26,679 bases of DNA from Candidatus Altarchaeum sp. (GTDB taxonomy: Archaea > Altiarchaeota > Altiarchaeia > Altiarchaeales > Altiarchaeaceae), in the NCBI GenBank assembly GCA_018260755.1, contig JAGTWP010000015.1, forward strand, positions 1-26,679, given 5' to 3'. Positions 11,886 to 22,753 of this stretch are shown here, piece after piece. The notes below the pieces were generated by a model that worked only from the letters and a program-made list of their open reading frames with translations, was not told where the DNA came from and did not search any database. Made by a program: the position numbers and the translations under genes. The stretch's first letter is position 1; each line of letters begins with the position of its first letter.

Positions 11886-12005
11886 ATAAGGTTGAATTTA
11901 AATCGGAAAAATTTTAAATTTAAATAGGTGAAATTTTAAAGAGAATCAAAAAGGACACTTTTGAAAAAGATATGTTGTTTTTGCCGTCAAATGTTGTATT
12001 TGGAA

Positions 12006-12395
12006 ATGAGAGAAATAATAAATTTTCTGTATTTGTTTAGCTGGGATAAAATTCAAAGAAATGACAACAATGAACTCATAGAATTTATAGGGCAGAAATT
12101 TAGCATTGATTGGGTAAAAACTGCAAAAGTTGAAAAAATTAATGACGGCAGAACTATCCACATATCTACTGAAAAAAATAATCTTTCATTAGAACTTAAC
12201 GATGAAAAAACTGAAGTAACCCTAAAAATAGATGACGGCAGAACTGATAAATTCATCGCAAAGATGGAAAATGGCGAGCTAAACATATACAATTTTCTTA
12301 TCCTGAAAATACGTTCGCTAACGCTCGTGTATTTTCAAAATCTCTGCGATTTTGAAAATAACCTTACTTTTTGGAAATTGCTAATAAAGTGTTAA
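12006..12395 (+). CDS. Small conserved archaeal protein of unknown function, C-terminus extended by a repeat
   Basis: Unrecognised function. The core (from MREIINFLYLFSWDKI to GELNIY, about 95 residues) has a run of short charged beta-like strands: TAKVEKINDGRTIHIS, LELNDEKTEVTL, IDDGRTDKFIAKMENGELNIY. From memory it resembles short conserved hypothetical proteins in other euryarchaeal genomes that stop soon after the LNIY motif. Here the frame continues about 35 residues through a perfect palindrome (12330-12360), which argues that the tail was added by a repeat insertion. The frame is open further upstream to ATG 11991 and TTG 11961, so the start is uncertain; 12006 was chosen because the conserved-looking part begins there. 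Confidence 0.55.
   Translation: MREIINFLYLFSWDKIQRNDNNELIEFIGQKFSIDWVKTAKVEKINDGRTIHISTEKNNLSLELNDEKTEVTLKIDDGRTDKFIAKMENGELNIYNFLILKIRSLTLVYFQNLCDFENNLTFWKLLIKC
12305..12360. repeat. Palindromic element with two mutually exclusive hairpins
   Basis: TATTTTCAAAATC (12330-12342) and GATTTTGAAAATA (12348-12360) are perfect 13-bp inverted arms around a 5-base loop. Upstream, GAAAATAC (12305-12312) can instead pair with GTATTTTC (12329-12336), so the two stems compete for the same arm. The element lies within the 3' end of the small ORF and about 100 bp ahead of gyrA. It could be a mobile palindromic repeat or an attenuator-like structure. Confidence 0.8.
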
Positions 12396-17088: not shown

Positions 17089-17125
17089 AAAGATTTATAA
17101 AATTTTAGCAATTTTAAGATGGAAA
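17089..17125 (+). repeat. 37-bp direct repeat, copy 1: start region of the restriction gene
   Basis: The stretch from AAAGATTTATAAAATTTTAG through ATGGAAA matches 18610-18646 at 35 of 37 positions and includes the ATG of the restriction gene plus its TATA-like TTTATAAA. Upstream of it, 16896-17088 is an A/T-rich divergent spacer with no other feature seen. Confidence 0.93.
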
Positions 17126-17793
17126 GAAAATATTTAAACATAGCACAACAGATCTCGGAGAAATTTGATGAAATTCCAATTCATTGGGATGGAAGAAAGG
17201 CAATTTTGGAAATGAAAGATGCAAATTTTCCACATTGGAGACAAATGGAATGGATTGGATGGTATTTTCAGTTTTTATGCGGAAAACTTTTAAAAGACGG
17301 CGTAAAAATTCCAGGTCCGAAATACGGTAACTTAGAGTTTGATGGATTTAAAGAAATTCCCTGGGATTTCAAAGCACATGCCACCAATACAAGCAGCCAT
17401 CAAATAATTGTAAATGATAGCGAAGCGACAGCAAAAGCAACAACAGAATTCGGTTGCGTTGGATTGATTCTTGCGATGGGTGAAGTTAAATATAACGATG
17501 ATGAAAGAACTTTTCAGAAATGGCATGAAGAACTTAAAGGAGGAAAATCAGAATATGAACTTGAAAGAATTAAACGAGGTGCTTGGTCAAGATTAAGAAA
17601 AGTAGAATTTAGATTAGAACAAATTTCTTTCATAAAAATTGACGATTCGGTTCTTGTTAAATGCGGTTCTTTCCAGAGGGATTTCAGAAACTCCAATGGA
17701 ATGCCAAGAAGAGAAAAGGTATTGGTAGATTTAGAAAAATTAGATGAGGAGATAGTTTTCTTACTTGATTTTCAGAACAGATTTAGTAAATAG
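17119..17793 (+). CDS. Putative type II restriction endonuclease
   Basis: 224 residues, directly followed after 15 bp by a DNA methyltransferase on the same strand. A PD-(D/E)XK-like core is visible in FDGFKEIPWDFKAHA (about 74-88), where Asp-Phe-Lys gives the D-x-K pair and an upstream Asp/Glu can complete the metal site. The Trp-rich N-terminal section (HWDGRK, FPHWRQMEWIGWYFQFLCGK) is of the kind seen in sequence-specific nucleases. I do not recognise the exact family or the target site, so identification rests on the core motif plus the neighbour. The gene begins within a copy of the thrC start region, so expression may use a borrowed promoter. Confidence 0.7.
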   Translation: MERKYLNIAQQISEKFDEIPIHWDGRKAILEMKDANFPHWRQMEWIGWYFQFLCGKLLKDGVKIPGPKYGNLEFDGFKEIPWDFKAHATNTSSHQIIVNDSEATAKATTEFGCVGLILAMGEVKYNDDERTFQKWHEELKGGKSEYELERIKRGAWSRLRKVEFRLEQISFIKIDDSVLVKCGSFQRDFRNSNGMPRREKVLVDLEKLDEEIVFLLDFQNRFSK

Positions 17794-17808
17794 AATTTAA
17801 ATGCTAAA

Positions 17809-18570
17809 ATGATTAATAAAGCACTGTTGGACGGATTTAAAATAAAAGATATGAACTCTTGGGAAAATGTTAATGCAGATCTTATCATCACGGATCCACC
17901 ATTTGGAATAGAATTTAGTGGTAAAAATGGGAATTATCACAGAAATGTTGAAAATGTAGTAAGCGGATATGTAGAGTGGAAAGTTTTAGAATATGAAGAA
18001 AAAATACAACAATTGTTAGGATGTATAAAAAAGAACTTAAAAGAGAACGGACAAGCTTTAATTTTTTCCGGGTGGAATAACAGCAATATTGTCCATAATG
18101 AAATTATGAAATTTAATGGTTTAATATTAAGAGGTAAAATGTATTGGACTTATAATTTTGCTCCGTCTTGTATAAAAAGACCTTCTCATAATGTATATGA
18201 AATTTATTGGATTACAAACGGAGACAAATGGAAGTATAATAGCAGGTGCACAACTCATCATTGTCAAAGCGGAGAACCAAATCTAACGACCCTTAACTTT
18301 AAGAGGGACTATAAAGTTAATATGCCAAAATACCCAACACGACTGCCATTCAAGCTTTTACATTGTTTAATAGAGCATTTTTCTAATGAAAATGATTTGA
18401 TTTTTGATCCTTTATGTGGCAGTGGAATGGTGGGATTAGTTGCATCTATGCTCAAAAGAAGATTTATAATTGGTGATTTAAATGAAAACGGTAAAATTGT
18501 ATTTGAACACCTTTCTAATTATTATCTAAATAAAAATAATTTAATTCAATATCAAAAATTGATGACATAG
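17809..18570 (+). CDS. DNA methyltransferase, beta class (N6-adenine or N4-cytosine)
   Basis: Modification partner of the preceding endonuclease, 253 residues. Catalytic motif IV is TDPPFGIEFSG (about 28-38), and the SAM-binding motif I, FDPLCGSGMVGLVASMLKRR (about 200-219), comes after it; this circular order marks the beta class. KYPTRLPFKLLHCLIEHFS (about 181-199) matches motif X. DPPF fits N6-adenine methylation, but N4-cytosine cannot be excluded. The target domain (about 115-175) carries Cys and His residues (YNSRCTTHHCQSG). A second ATG lies 7 bp upstream but out of frame. Intact motifs indicate a working enzyme. Confidence 0.88.
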   Translation: MINKALLDGFKIKDMNSWENVNADLIITDPPFGIEFSGKNGNYHRNVENVVSGYVEWKVLEYEEKIQQLLGCIKKNLKENGQALIFSGWNNSNIVHNEIMKFNGLILRGKMYWTYNFAPSCIKRPSHNVYEIYWITNGDKWKYNSRCTTHHCQSGEPNLTTLNFKRDYKVNMPKYPTRLPFKLLHCLIEHFSNENDLIFDPLCGSGMVGLVASMLKRRFIIGDLNENGKIVFEHLSNYYLNKNNLIQYQKLMT

Positions 18571-19857: not shown

Positions 19858-20034
19858 ATGCACGGAATAAAAAATAAAATTCTGAAATTTGAAGAAAAAA
19901 TAGATAAATTAAGGGATCCAGCGAGGATCAAAGAACATCCAATGGAAATGCCTATTCTTTGGGCATTGTTTATAATAGCATCAATTATTGTAAACTTCAT
20001 AAAAAATGATCGCTCATATACCTATTATCATTGA
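19858..20034 (+). CDS. Small single-pass membrane protein (58 residues)
   Basis: MHGIKNKILKFEEKIDKLRD is a charged helical head; MPILWALFIIASIIVNFI (about 31-48) is one membrane helix, followed by a short polar tail ending YTYYH. The gene begins 21 bp after thrC with ATG and ends in TGA. No family recognised. It is possibly translated from the thrC transcript. Confidence 0.6.
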   Translation: MHGIKNKILKFEEKIDKLRDPARIKEHPMEMPILWALFIIASIIVNFIKNDRSYTYYH

Positions 20035-20059
20035 ACTTTTGTGTTTTGCATTTTATAGT

Positions 20060-20184
20060 GTATTTGAACTTGGATTTATATTTGAATTTGTGCTTGAATT
20101 TTAAAATTTGCAAAACTTCAACAATGTGTTTATCCCTATCAGTGAAAATCAACATAAGAGCGAAAAAAATTAATTTTGTAAAAG
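20060..20184 (+). repeat. Left arm of a ~124-bp inverted repeat flanking the ParA/AlbA_2 operon
   Basis: This stretch is the reverse complement of 22557-22679 at roughly 80-85% by eye. It includes a perfect 24-base block at 20138-20161 (ATCAGTGAAAATCAACATAA plus four bases) and a perfect 22-base block at 20093-20114 (CTTGAATTTTAAAATTTGCA plus two). It fills most of the gene-free interval 20035-20360. Past it, 20233-20360 shows nothing recognisable apart from a short palindrome at the ParA stop. Confidence 0.93.
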
Positions 20185-20228
20185 ACGAGTTTCATGGAGA
20201 ATGGAACTATAAAATTATTCCAAATTGA
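20178..20228 (+). pseudogene. Possible C-terminal scar of an ISAzo13-type transposase
   Basis: The frame reads V-K-D-E-F-H-G-E-W-N-Y-K-I-I-P-N-stop. From memory, ISAzo13/Rhodopirellula-type DDE transposases end in a very similar F-H-G-(D/E)-W-N-Y-T-I block. Only about 16 codons remain and the left inverted-repeat arm runs into them from upstream. This rests on recall of a short motif, so confidence is low. Confidence 0.3.
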
Positions 20229-20360
20229 TTAAGTTATTTCGTTACGATTCCCTTGTCCAAAGTTTGCATTTTCATATATTGTAGCAATAGCAGGGGTTCA
20301 TTTTTGGTAATTCCCTTACAGCTTGTTGAGCTTTGATGTCAAAAAGGACGAAAAAGAGTT

Positions 20361-21335
20361 TCATTTGCAAATAGAAACAATTTTTTCTGCGAGTGTTTTG
20401 AAATCCTCATAACATTTTTGAACGGCATATACATGCATGCCAATTGCCCCATCTGCTGGTTTGAGTATAAACATGGGCTTGTGTGCTTCCATTGACATCG
20501 GTGCCAAGCTGTGATAATGCTTTAATAGTCCGATACAATTATCGTCTTCTTCAACCGTTTGAGATGGCAGTTGATTATTATTTAAAACATATTCGGAATA
20601 AAAATGCGGAATCCTATTTGCCCATTTTAAATAAGATTTTACTGGTCTGCTTTCTTTTGCAGTATATTGCATGACAATATAACCTGCGGGTAACTCCTTC
20701 CCTTTTGGAATATCAAAATTTAATAATTGCGGTTTTCTGTCAATTCTGTCCTGCCAGTCCTTTTTCCAATTGTTTAATGTAATACCAAGGTTTTTTATCC
20801 CCTGAAGTGAAAACAAATCAGATGCTACAGGTATTATTATATAATCGGAACTTATTGTAACGGCCCTGTTTATTGCCCCTAAATTCGGACCTACATCAAT
20901 TAGAACTACCTCTGCATTTTGCTGTCTGGCAGCATCATTTATGATTGTATTGAAAATACTCGTAATCTTAAATGAATAAATATCCCCCCCTAAACATTCC
21001 AACCACGCTTTACTTAATTTGTCTTCAAAGGCAGATAATGATAAATTGCCAATAACCAAACCAAGGTTATCTGTAATTTGCTCAACATGCACAGGAATGT
21101 AGGGATCGCCTGATGCAACAGGAATTATTGAGTCCAATATAGTTAGCTTTAATTCATTTTCATATATTTCTTCAAGTCTTTCCATTGTAAGAAACATAGA
21201 AGTAAGGTTTGATTGCGGATCTAAATCTACAGCAATGGTTTTTATACCTAATTGCGACAACATCCATGCAACATGATACACAGTTGTTGTTTTGCCAACA
21301 CCCCCTTTATTATTGAAAAAAGTTATTGCTCTCAT
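20361..21335 (-). CDS. ParA/Soj-family ATPase
   Basis: Deviant-Walker ATPase of 324 residues. The P-loop NNKGGVGKTTT (8-18) with its signature lysine, AVDLDPQSNLT (35-45) and LIDVGPNLGAINRA (about 145-158) are all intact. Such ATPases bind DNA as dimers and position plasmids, chromosomes or large complexes. The protein is longer than a minimal ParA, with an extra C-terminal portion (about 250-324, KPMFILKPADGAIGMHV, YEDFKTLAEKIVSIC). It starts one base after the end of the AlbA_2 gene, so the two are translationally linked. There is no ParB gene. The intact motifs and tight coupling argue for a joint function, perhaps defence or maintenance of a mobile unit; that is inference. Confidence 0.9.
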   Translation of the reverse strand: MRAITFFNNKGGVGKTTTVYHVAWMLSQLGIKTIAVDLDPQSNLTSMFLTMERLEEIYENELKLTILDSIIPVASGDPYIPVHVEQITDNLGLVIGNLSLSAFEDKLSKAWLECLGGDIYSFKITSIFNTIINDAARQQNAEVVLIDVGPNLGAINRAVTISSDYIIIPVASDLFSLQGIKNLGITLNNWKKDWQDRIDRKPQLLNFDIPKGKELPAGYIVMQYTAKESRPVKSYLKWANRIPHFYSEYVLNNNQLPSQTVEEDDNCIGLLKHYHSLAPMSMEAHKPMFILKPADGAIGMHVYAVQKCYEDFKTLAEKIVSICK

Positions 21336-21336
21336 T

Positions 21337-22533
21337 TTACCATTCTTTATTTATATGGATTGTAACTTTAAATCCTGTTACTGAGGATAAATCGAACTCA
21401 GGTTCTCCATTTCCGTTTTTTATCAGTTCTTCTTTTGCTCTCTTTATTCCGTAATTAAATCTATTAACATACCCAAGTACTTTCATCGCTTCTGCTATTG
21501 CAATGTTTCTGTAGTCGCTTCTATCCGGAAAATTGTCTTTATTTACATCACCATACAAACCGCCTGGGTTTACAATTTCAATTTTATTTGAAAATTCATA
21601 GATATATATCGGGGCATTGGATTCATAACTTCTGTGCATTATTGCATTTAAAATTAATTCTCTCACCGCCCAATAACTATAATTATAAATTATTTTTTCC
21701 TGAAAAGAATTCTGCCTTACTGGTCTTACTTTGATTATATTGTTTTTTATAAAAGTATCAATAGTATTAAGTCCAGTAATGAGTGCCTCTGAAAAATTTT
21801 TTTCAAATTCTACATTTGATAACATATCCTCTCCTGCAAATTTTACATATTGAATATACGCACCTGGCAAATTAAACAAAGGGTTTTTACCAAAGAGCAA
21901 AATACCTGCATTGGTGGGACAATTTTCTTTTAAATCATAAAACCGTAATGAAGCCATTTGGTTTTTCACATCCCTGTTATTTGTTTCCAAAGTTTCTTTA
22001 TCAATAGCTAGAGGCAGGTAGATTGATTTAAAGTACTCCTCCACTAAATCATCTAAGGTTGCACCTAATGTAGGAACTAAATCATAAGTTTTTACATAAG
22101 AATCTCTACGTTCAGTTAAAATAGTTTCTTCTGCAATGCTTGCTTTATCTCGTCTTGGACCTACCCTTATCCAACACCTGCCATCATAACGAACAGGAGG
22201 GTATAAAGATGGTTTTACCTCTATTACTACTACTTCACCATCTGGAAACTTAAAAACAGGACTTACCACTATGGATGGTTGCGGCAATACATTACCATTT
22301 GTTTTTATACTTCCTATTTTTTGAAGTTCTTTATCACTCCATTTCATTCCTGCAATAGATCCATCGTCATTTATACCTAATAATATATAACCTGATTTTT
22401 TATGGTTAGGGAAATCATTAGATAAAGCACACACTGCCGGACCTAACTTATCTTCCTTTACAGATATTGTTCTTTCAATGAAATCAGATTCCAAATCTTT
22501 CATCAGTGTTTTTATTTCGTCTATTGATAACAT
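21337..22533 (-). CDS. AlbA_2 (Schlafen-like) domain protein with C-terminal GHKL ATPase (COG2865 type)
   Basis: 398 residues. The N-terminal AlbA_2 domain is shown by the ESDFIERT start (15-22), GYILLGINDDGSIAG (about 48-62), VVVIEVKPS and CWIRVGPRRDKAS (about 119-131). The C-terminal half carries a histidine-kinase-type ATPase fold: RELILNAIMHRSYESNAPI with the N-box Asn, then NKIEIVNPGGLYG and NIAIAEAMKVLGYVNRFNYGI. These proteins are often annotated as transcriptional regulators or ATP-dependent helicases, and AlbA_2 domains recur in defence and mobile-element settings. It heads the operon with ParA, and its leader is the right inverted-repeat arm. The molecular activity is not established for the family. 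Confidence 0.9.
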   Translation of the reverse strand: MLSIDEIKTLMKDLESDFIERTISVKEDKLGPAVCALSNDFPNHKKSGYILLGINDDGSIAGMKWSDKELQKIGSIKTNGNVLPQPSIVVSPVFKFPDGEVVVIEVKPSLYPPVRYDGRCWIRVGPRRDKASIAEETILTERRDSYVKTYDLVPTLGATLDDLVEEYFKSIYLPLAIDKETLETNNRDVKNQMASLRFYDLKENCPTNAGILLFGKNPLFNLPGAYIQYVKFAGEDMLSNVEFEKNFSEALITGLNTIDTFIKNNIIKVRPVRQNSFQEKIIYNYSYWAVRELILNAIMHRSYESNAPIYIYEFSNKIEIVNPGGLYGDVNKDNFPDRSDYRNIAIAEAMKVLGYVNRFNYGIKRAKEELIKNGNGEPEFDLSSVTGFKVTIHINKEW

Positions 22534-22556
22534 TTTTTGTTTTATTCATGTTTTGC

Positions 22557-22679
22557 GTTTTGAAAAATTTATTATTTTAGCTCTTATGTTGATTTTCACT
22601 GATGGAGACGAAATACATTGTAAGTTTGCAAATTTTAAAATTCAAGTTCAAGTTCAAATACAGATTCAAGTTCAAATAC
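22557..22679 (-). repeat. Right arm of the ~124-bp inverted repeat; leader of the AlbA_2-ParA operon
   Basis: Inverted match of 20060-20184, with perfect blocks at 22580-22603 and 22625-22646. It ends 23 bp before the AlbA_2 ATG and so must contain or overlap the operon's promoter. On the minus strand it begins with two direct copies of GTATTTGAACTTGAA spaced 18 bp apart, an iteron-like arrangement. The rest of this gap (22680-22753) is A/T-rich with nothing seen. Confidence 0.93.
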
Positions 22680-22753
22680 TGTTTAAGGATTACAATGTAA
22701 TTAAATTTTGTCAGATAGTATAATATATGCTCAATTATTTGACATCCGACATT

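Follow-up and report, generated by a model that had tools for sequence, protein, structure and literature searches.

ParA proteins are almost automatically read as DNA-segregation factors, and SLFN_AlbA_2-HATPase proteins have traditionally been annotated as transcriptional regulators or as RecG-like proteins. A dyad of ParA/Soj and HEPN proteins was proposed as a toxin-antitoxin system in 2013 (Anantharaman et al., PMC3710099). Schlafen-HATPase-wHTH RNases have been reported to be common in BREX loci (PMC12839542); according to the citation in that paper, bacterial Schlafen defense is also the topic of a preprint. PARIS and other BREX-embedded ATPase-nuclease guards likewise join an ATPase and a tRNA-targeting nuclease in two-gene units within BREX or restriction-modification (R-M) loci.

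Here we describe a gene pair in a 26,679-nt stretch of DNA (the window) from Candidatus Altarchaeum sp., contig JAGTWP010000015.1 (Table 1). As in the dyad of PMC3710099, a gene for a predicted RNase shares a two-gene operon with one for a ParA/Soj-like ATPase. Here, however, the effector is a Schlafen_AlbA_2 protein with a HATPase domain (hereafter SLFN), it is encoded upstream of ParA, and this ParA falls in a separate clade. The SLFN protein shares the SLFN and minimal histidine-kinase domain order, as well as BREX integration, with the Schlafens of PMC12839542, but it has one specific ParA as its dedicated partner, and that paper makes no mention of ParA. PARIS consists of an OLD-type ABC ATPase and TOPRIM, whereas the present pair consists of ParA and Schlafen. 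Where sister ParAs have SIR2 partners, these match the ThsA, LmuA, and DSR models; in contrast to Thoeris ThsA/DSR, they are coupled to ParA, and the window pair has SLFN instead. No report of ParA paired with Schlafen, SIR2, or RelA/SpoT was found in our literature search, outside which most subscription journals and preprints lay. The ParA-HEPN dyad and the Schlafen RNases of BREX loci are already known, and the pairing of ParA with Schlafen, SIR2, or RelA is apparently unreported. We consider it probable that the pair is a horizontally acquired module for abortive infection, gated by an ATPase and built around exchangeable effectors, of which the present one is a Schlafen-type RNase, and that the inverted repeat arms around it are unrelated to it.

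Table 1. Features of the SLFN-ParA locus and its flanks (positions in the window)
Feature	Position	Strand	Basis or remark
Complete 152-bp copy of the MITE-like element (left arm), outside the module	20011..20162	+	Genome copies aligned
89-bp repeat, end of an ISAzo13-family insertion sequence (contig C27); IS remnant	20163..20251		
Third dispersed repeat, present at 8 or more further genomic places	20253..20329		
ParA-family ATPase, 324 aa	20361..21335	-	Pfam AAA_31, 1.6e-29; predicted sensor/regulator
SLFN_AlbA_2 + GHKL/HATPase_c_4 protein, 398 aa	21337..22533	-	Pfam; predicted Schlafen-type RNase effector
Old, truncated, ~86% identical copy of the MITE-like element (right arm)	~22579..22680	-	

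The gene coordinates and Pfam domains bore out the two-gene ParA and AlbA_2/HATPase unit of the preliminary description: the SLFN gene is the first in the operon and ParA the second, with a gap of 1 base between them. The deviant Walker A motif of ParA is KGGVGKTT, and its C-terminal extension (PMFxLKPADGAIGxH) is conserved; K10, G11-V13, K15, T16, D39, and D147 were invariant in an alignment of 27 family members. The best PDB match of the ParA AlphaFold model (pLDDT 87), covering the whole protein, was 3pg5 (Corynebacterium diphtheriae DIP2308; E=7.5e-40); Soj structures ranked below it. The SLFN protein matched PF04326 (9.1e-16). Among its 24 homologues E15 and E20 were invariant and D56 was at least 90% conserved, which fits the Schlafen ExxxxE...D pattern; by analogy with SLFN13 and SLFN11, we take these residues to be catalytic. 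The ATP-site residues of the GHKL domain (N296, H300, G324, and G328) were invariant in the same homologues. The model of the SLFN-HATPase protein had a pLDDT of 82.5 and a pTM of 0.61, so that the domain arrangement is uncertain; its best solved relative was 3lmm (C. diphtheriae DIP2311; Foldseek 3.5e-18), followed by histidine kinases and human SLFN14 and SLFN11. These features point to a predicted Schlafen-type RNase. DIP2308 and DIP2311 are structural-genomics entries without an assigned function, and their locus-tag numbers alone suggest that the two genes lie close together.

A single scan of GTDB genomes yielded 31 SLFN relatives, 24 of which had ParA immediately downstream, with gene gaps of -16 to +1 nt. 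Most of these pairs were from Bacteroidota; others were from Calditrichota, Acidobacteriota, Chloroflexota, and Methylococcaceae. The remaining seven relatives had no ParA match: two of them (L091 and L103) were truncated copies or lay at contig ends, and five (L076, L079, L085, L094, and L095) were intact. Since SLFN occurs alone in these five loci and ParA occurs alone in one congener (G003, see below), neither partner is strictly obligatory. The altiarchaeal ParAs were nested among Bacteroidota and Chlorobiota sequences in the ParA tree, which indicates transfer into the archaeon. No viral protein closely related to SLFN turned up in a single-sequence scan. On the evidence of the sequences, the SLFN-ParA pair is a horizontally spread two-gene cassette.

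After removal of redundancy, searches of plasmids and viral contigs left 161 ParAs that have the long C-terminal region. The partners tightly coupled to them were SLFN (26, upstream), SIR2 (26), RelA/SpoT (17), and HEPN RiboL-PSP (17), all four domains being confirmed by Pfam; the sampling was seeded by these partner types, and the counts are therefore not frequencies. The HEPN partners scored best to RiboL-PSP-HEPN, whereas the dyad of PMC3710099 contains a MAE_18760 HEPN protein. A further cluster of five partners (L205, L219, L223, L224, and L304; ~215-240 aa, beginning with 'VAFIDILGF') had no Pfam match in the two proteins tested and is cyclase-like by eye only; it is possibly a fifth partner type. 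The remaining ParAs, including many prophage copies, had no such neighbor within the stretch read. The SLFN-, SIR2-, and RelA-coupled ParAs each fell in a well-supported clade (SH-aLRT 100), and the HEPN-coupled ParAs occurred within the same ParA set. The effector (SLFN, SIR2, HEPN, or RelA/SpoT) is thus exchanged within one ParA family, and relatives of the window ParA are joined to other toxins in bacteria and in bacterial viruses. A ParA-like ATPase and a toxin-type enzyme form a tight operon in the window as well, and this tight spacing was conserved over 24 genome loci.

The neighbor genes of the SLFN-ParA loci included known defense genes in a minority of cases; many other loci lie between housekeeping genes. 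Two loci combine the pair with type III R-M genes in the order Mod-SLFN-ParA-Res (L088) and SLFN-ParA-Res (L087), and SLFN without ParA lies between Mod and Res at L079. At L171, a methylase-sized ORF and a PglZ-domain protein flank SLFN-ParA; single strong matches to PglX, PglZ, and BrxL among the neighbor genes were assigned to one BREX operon at this locus. Within the window itself, no other defense gene adjoins the pair, save for a possible R-M pair beyond thrC. This possible pair (17119-18570, upstream of thrC) comprises a 224-aa protein without a Pfam match and, 15 bp later, an N6_N4 DNA methylase; it is absent beside thrC in the congener G003 and is likely a lineage-specific R-M pair. 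PADLOC has no model for the SLFN-ParA pair. The proposal that the unit could be a little-described defense or maintenance system is supported by evidence other than the arms: the horizontal spread of the pair, its placement within type III R-M and BREX operons of some genomes, and the swapping of effectors around one ParA family.

In the abortive-infection mechanism that we propose, the SLFN_AlbA_2-HATPase protein would act as the effector, a Schlafen-type RNase with tRNA as its probable target. Encoded on the same mRNA, the ParA-like ATPase would sense infection or the loss of a partner defense system and would control the effector, either restraint or activation being conceivable. The action of the effector would stop translation and abort the infection. 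We infer a defense role of the pair in its Altiarchaeales host, and the RNase activity and what ParA senses are likewise predicted. Counting against this reading are the occurrence of each partner without the other, the missing PADLOC model, the traditional annotation of SLFN_AlbA_2-HATPase proteins, and the surroundings of the window pair, where the possible R-M pair is the sole other defense candidate.

The same operon could also be a toxin-antitoxin module, with the SLFN RNase as the toxin and ParA as the antitoxin, which would serve its own persistence rather than defense. We regard this reading as possible and hold it tentatively. It accords with the shared operon, with the proposal of ParA/Soj as the antitoxin of HEPN in PMC3710099, and with the persistence of ParA alone in G003 after the loss of SLFN, as would be expected of a harmless antitoxin; however, five loci have SLFN but no ParA, and the placement within BREX and type III R-M operons points to coupling with defense. 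It is improbable that the genes form a ParABS-like chromosome or plasmid partition pair, or a transcriptional regulator with a ParA cofactor. The ParA fold and the frequent annotation of AlbA_2/HATPase proteins as regulators would suit such a role, but no ParB was found in the window, the C-terminal extension of ParA is conserved, ParA lies far from two partition ParAs on the tree, and the partners of the family are toxin-type enzymes (SLFN, SIR2, HEPN, and RelA/SpoT) instead of a ParB acting with a centromere. No RNA families were found in the window.

The preliminary description had drawn attention to inverted arms around the pair, and these are real: 69 nt at 83% and 51 nt at 86% complementarity, far above chance as a repeat. 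They include two stretches that match perfectly, one of 24 bp (ATCAGTGAAAATCAACATAAGAGC) and one of 22 bp (CTTGAATTTTAAAATTTGCAAA). Their edges had been placed at 20060-20184 and 22557-22679; the repeats were upheld but the edges were not, and the true copies are those of Table 1. When the left arm was used to search the window's own genome (Altiarchaeales, 1.32 Mb, 78 contigs), 31 or more near-full copies, itself among them, and several partial copies were recovered. The aligned copies had the same fixed ends, CGCTCATATACC...AACATAAGAGCG, across a unit of ~150 bp and shared CGCTC...GAGCG termini; the element is short and has no ORF. Perfect 8-bp target duplications flanked 3 of 14 clean-ended copies, compared with 0.41 expected (6 of 2,000 shuffles); this signal is modest, and no signal was seen at other lengths. 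The arm element thus behaves like a lineage-specific MITE. It shares with prokaryotic MITEs its shortness, the lack of an ORF, inverted ends, 8-bp target duplications, and many copies; no parent transposase with its ends was found among the few loci read for end-only matches. Two internally deleted copies of ~105 bp lie 0.5 kb apart in direct orientation at L069 (1822-1926 and 2331-2435).

The element was not found in any genome of the genus or in that of Candidatus Altiarchaeales archaeon WOR_SM1_SCG (G026), although two genomes farther removed gave weak matches to parts of it, and no arm match was found at the 31 related loci or in the congener regions. Where enough flanking sequence was available, 21 of 22 pairs had no flanking inverted repeat whatever. 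The exception, L096, has flanking inverted repeats of 94 bp (95% identical) that are unrelated in sequence to the arms and are probably a dispersed repeat too. The orthologous pair of G026 lies at a different locus without arms, and its DNA homology to the window (78%) covers exactly 20359-22546, that is, just the two genes. If 38 copies were placed randomly in 1.32 Mb, 1.4 inverted neighbor pairs closer than 2.7 kb would be expected, and the probability of at least one inverted copy pair within 2.7 kb would be 0.78; the enclosure of the gene pair is therefore unremarkable. The TATTTGAA direct repeats, which had been suggested as binding sites for ParA or the AlbA_2 protein, are internal to the element and present in copies genome-wide, and hence are not operators of the operon. 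The SLFN start codon is 46 bp away from the right-arm copy, which lies upstream of it and may provide leader or promoter sequence for this gene. On the other side, the ISAzo13-end repeat and the third dispersed repeat both lie between the ParA stop codon and the left copy.

These results do not support a reading of the arms as the limits of a discrete mobile or invertible module: they belong to a dispersed repeat that is common in the genome, related pairs and the congener locus lack them, and it is ParA, not the whole pair, that is stably placed without them. Most of what the preliminary description had named as refuting its reading was thus observed. We rejected both a composite and an invertible module because of the dispersed copies, the truncated right copy, the armless relatives, and the chance statistics. 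Joint movement of the pair as a composite or MITE-mobilized transposon is very unlikely: two inverted copies of an element with inverted ends and 8-bp target duplications do enclose the genes, but the right copy lacks its outer end, so that intact ends on both sides are missing, no second armed copy exists in the genome, joint movement with the genes was not seen, homologous pairs elsewhere are armless, and ParA was already at the locus in an armless congener. A phase-variable segment flipped by recombination between the ~120-bp inverted repeats, with their perfect 24- and 22-bp blocks, is just as hard to maintain, since arm identity is ~85% with short perfect blocks, the element occurs genome-wide, both genes are free of arm sequence, no promoter switch can be seen, and no recombinase is found beside the arms; the reported lack of a recombinase, as of a ParB in the window, was confirmed. 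The arms are two MITE-like repeat copies without a functional link to the ParA and SLFN genes.

The spacing of thrC and ilvB, which had been proposed for comparison with relatives lacking the unit, was uninformative since the two genes are on separate contigs in congeners. In G003, ParA (88% identical) adjoins ilvB in the same orientation and without arms, and of SLFN all but ~23 bp at the 3' end is deleted. On the far side of ParA, G003 has a gene for a 784-aa protein with TPR and a beta-lactamase fold; this gene recurs on contig C66 of the window genome beside a 3' fragment of ParA (DNA 93.5% identical). This fragment (L142, 3049-3489; residues ~206-324, 90% identical) is a trace of a rearrangement or duplication of the ParA locus. 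The synteny in G003 and the contig C66 fragment indicate that ParA was already at the ilvB locus within the genus and that the locus was rearranged later; dispersed repeats may have mediated this rearrangement. The 251-bp window stretch 20001-20251, comprising the element and the IS end, recurs on contig C19 (L068, 429-679). It lies there upstream of a gene whose congener counterpart comes next after thrC, which suggests a rearrangement breakpoint at the repeat. A module of ~90 aa (FCWDDVPG...IDW...IHIS...) was also seen in the window (11961-12395) and at L068, L142, and L129; it occurs ~14-22 times per genome (the window genome G000, G003, and G026) within otherwise different open frames, has no confident Pfam family, and resembles a protein insert or domain dispersed within genes.

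For the reading of genomes, these findings are a caution: where MITEs abound, an ordinary gene pair can resemble a bounded mobile module. A broader proposal, to which we give an even chance, is that the ParA family with the C-terminal extension is a general infection-sensing immune switch with clade-specific, interchangeable killers, carried on chromosomes, plasmids, and prophages, transferred from Bacteroidota into an archaeon, and built in places into BREX and type III R-M operons as a back-up suicide layer. If this is true, the killers swapped would be a Schlafen RNase, a SIR2 NADase, a HEPN RNase, a RelA/SpoT-type enzyme, and the 'VAFIDILGF' protein. The repeated pairing of a ParA-type ATPase with toxin-type enzymes in this family turns genes annotated as 'ParA family protein' and 'ATP-binding protein' into a testable class of immune switches, and prokaryotic Schlafen RNases gain a specific partner that may tell how Schlafen RNases are controlled.
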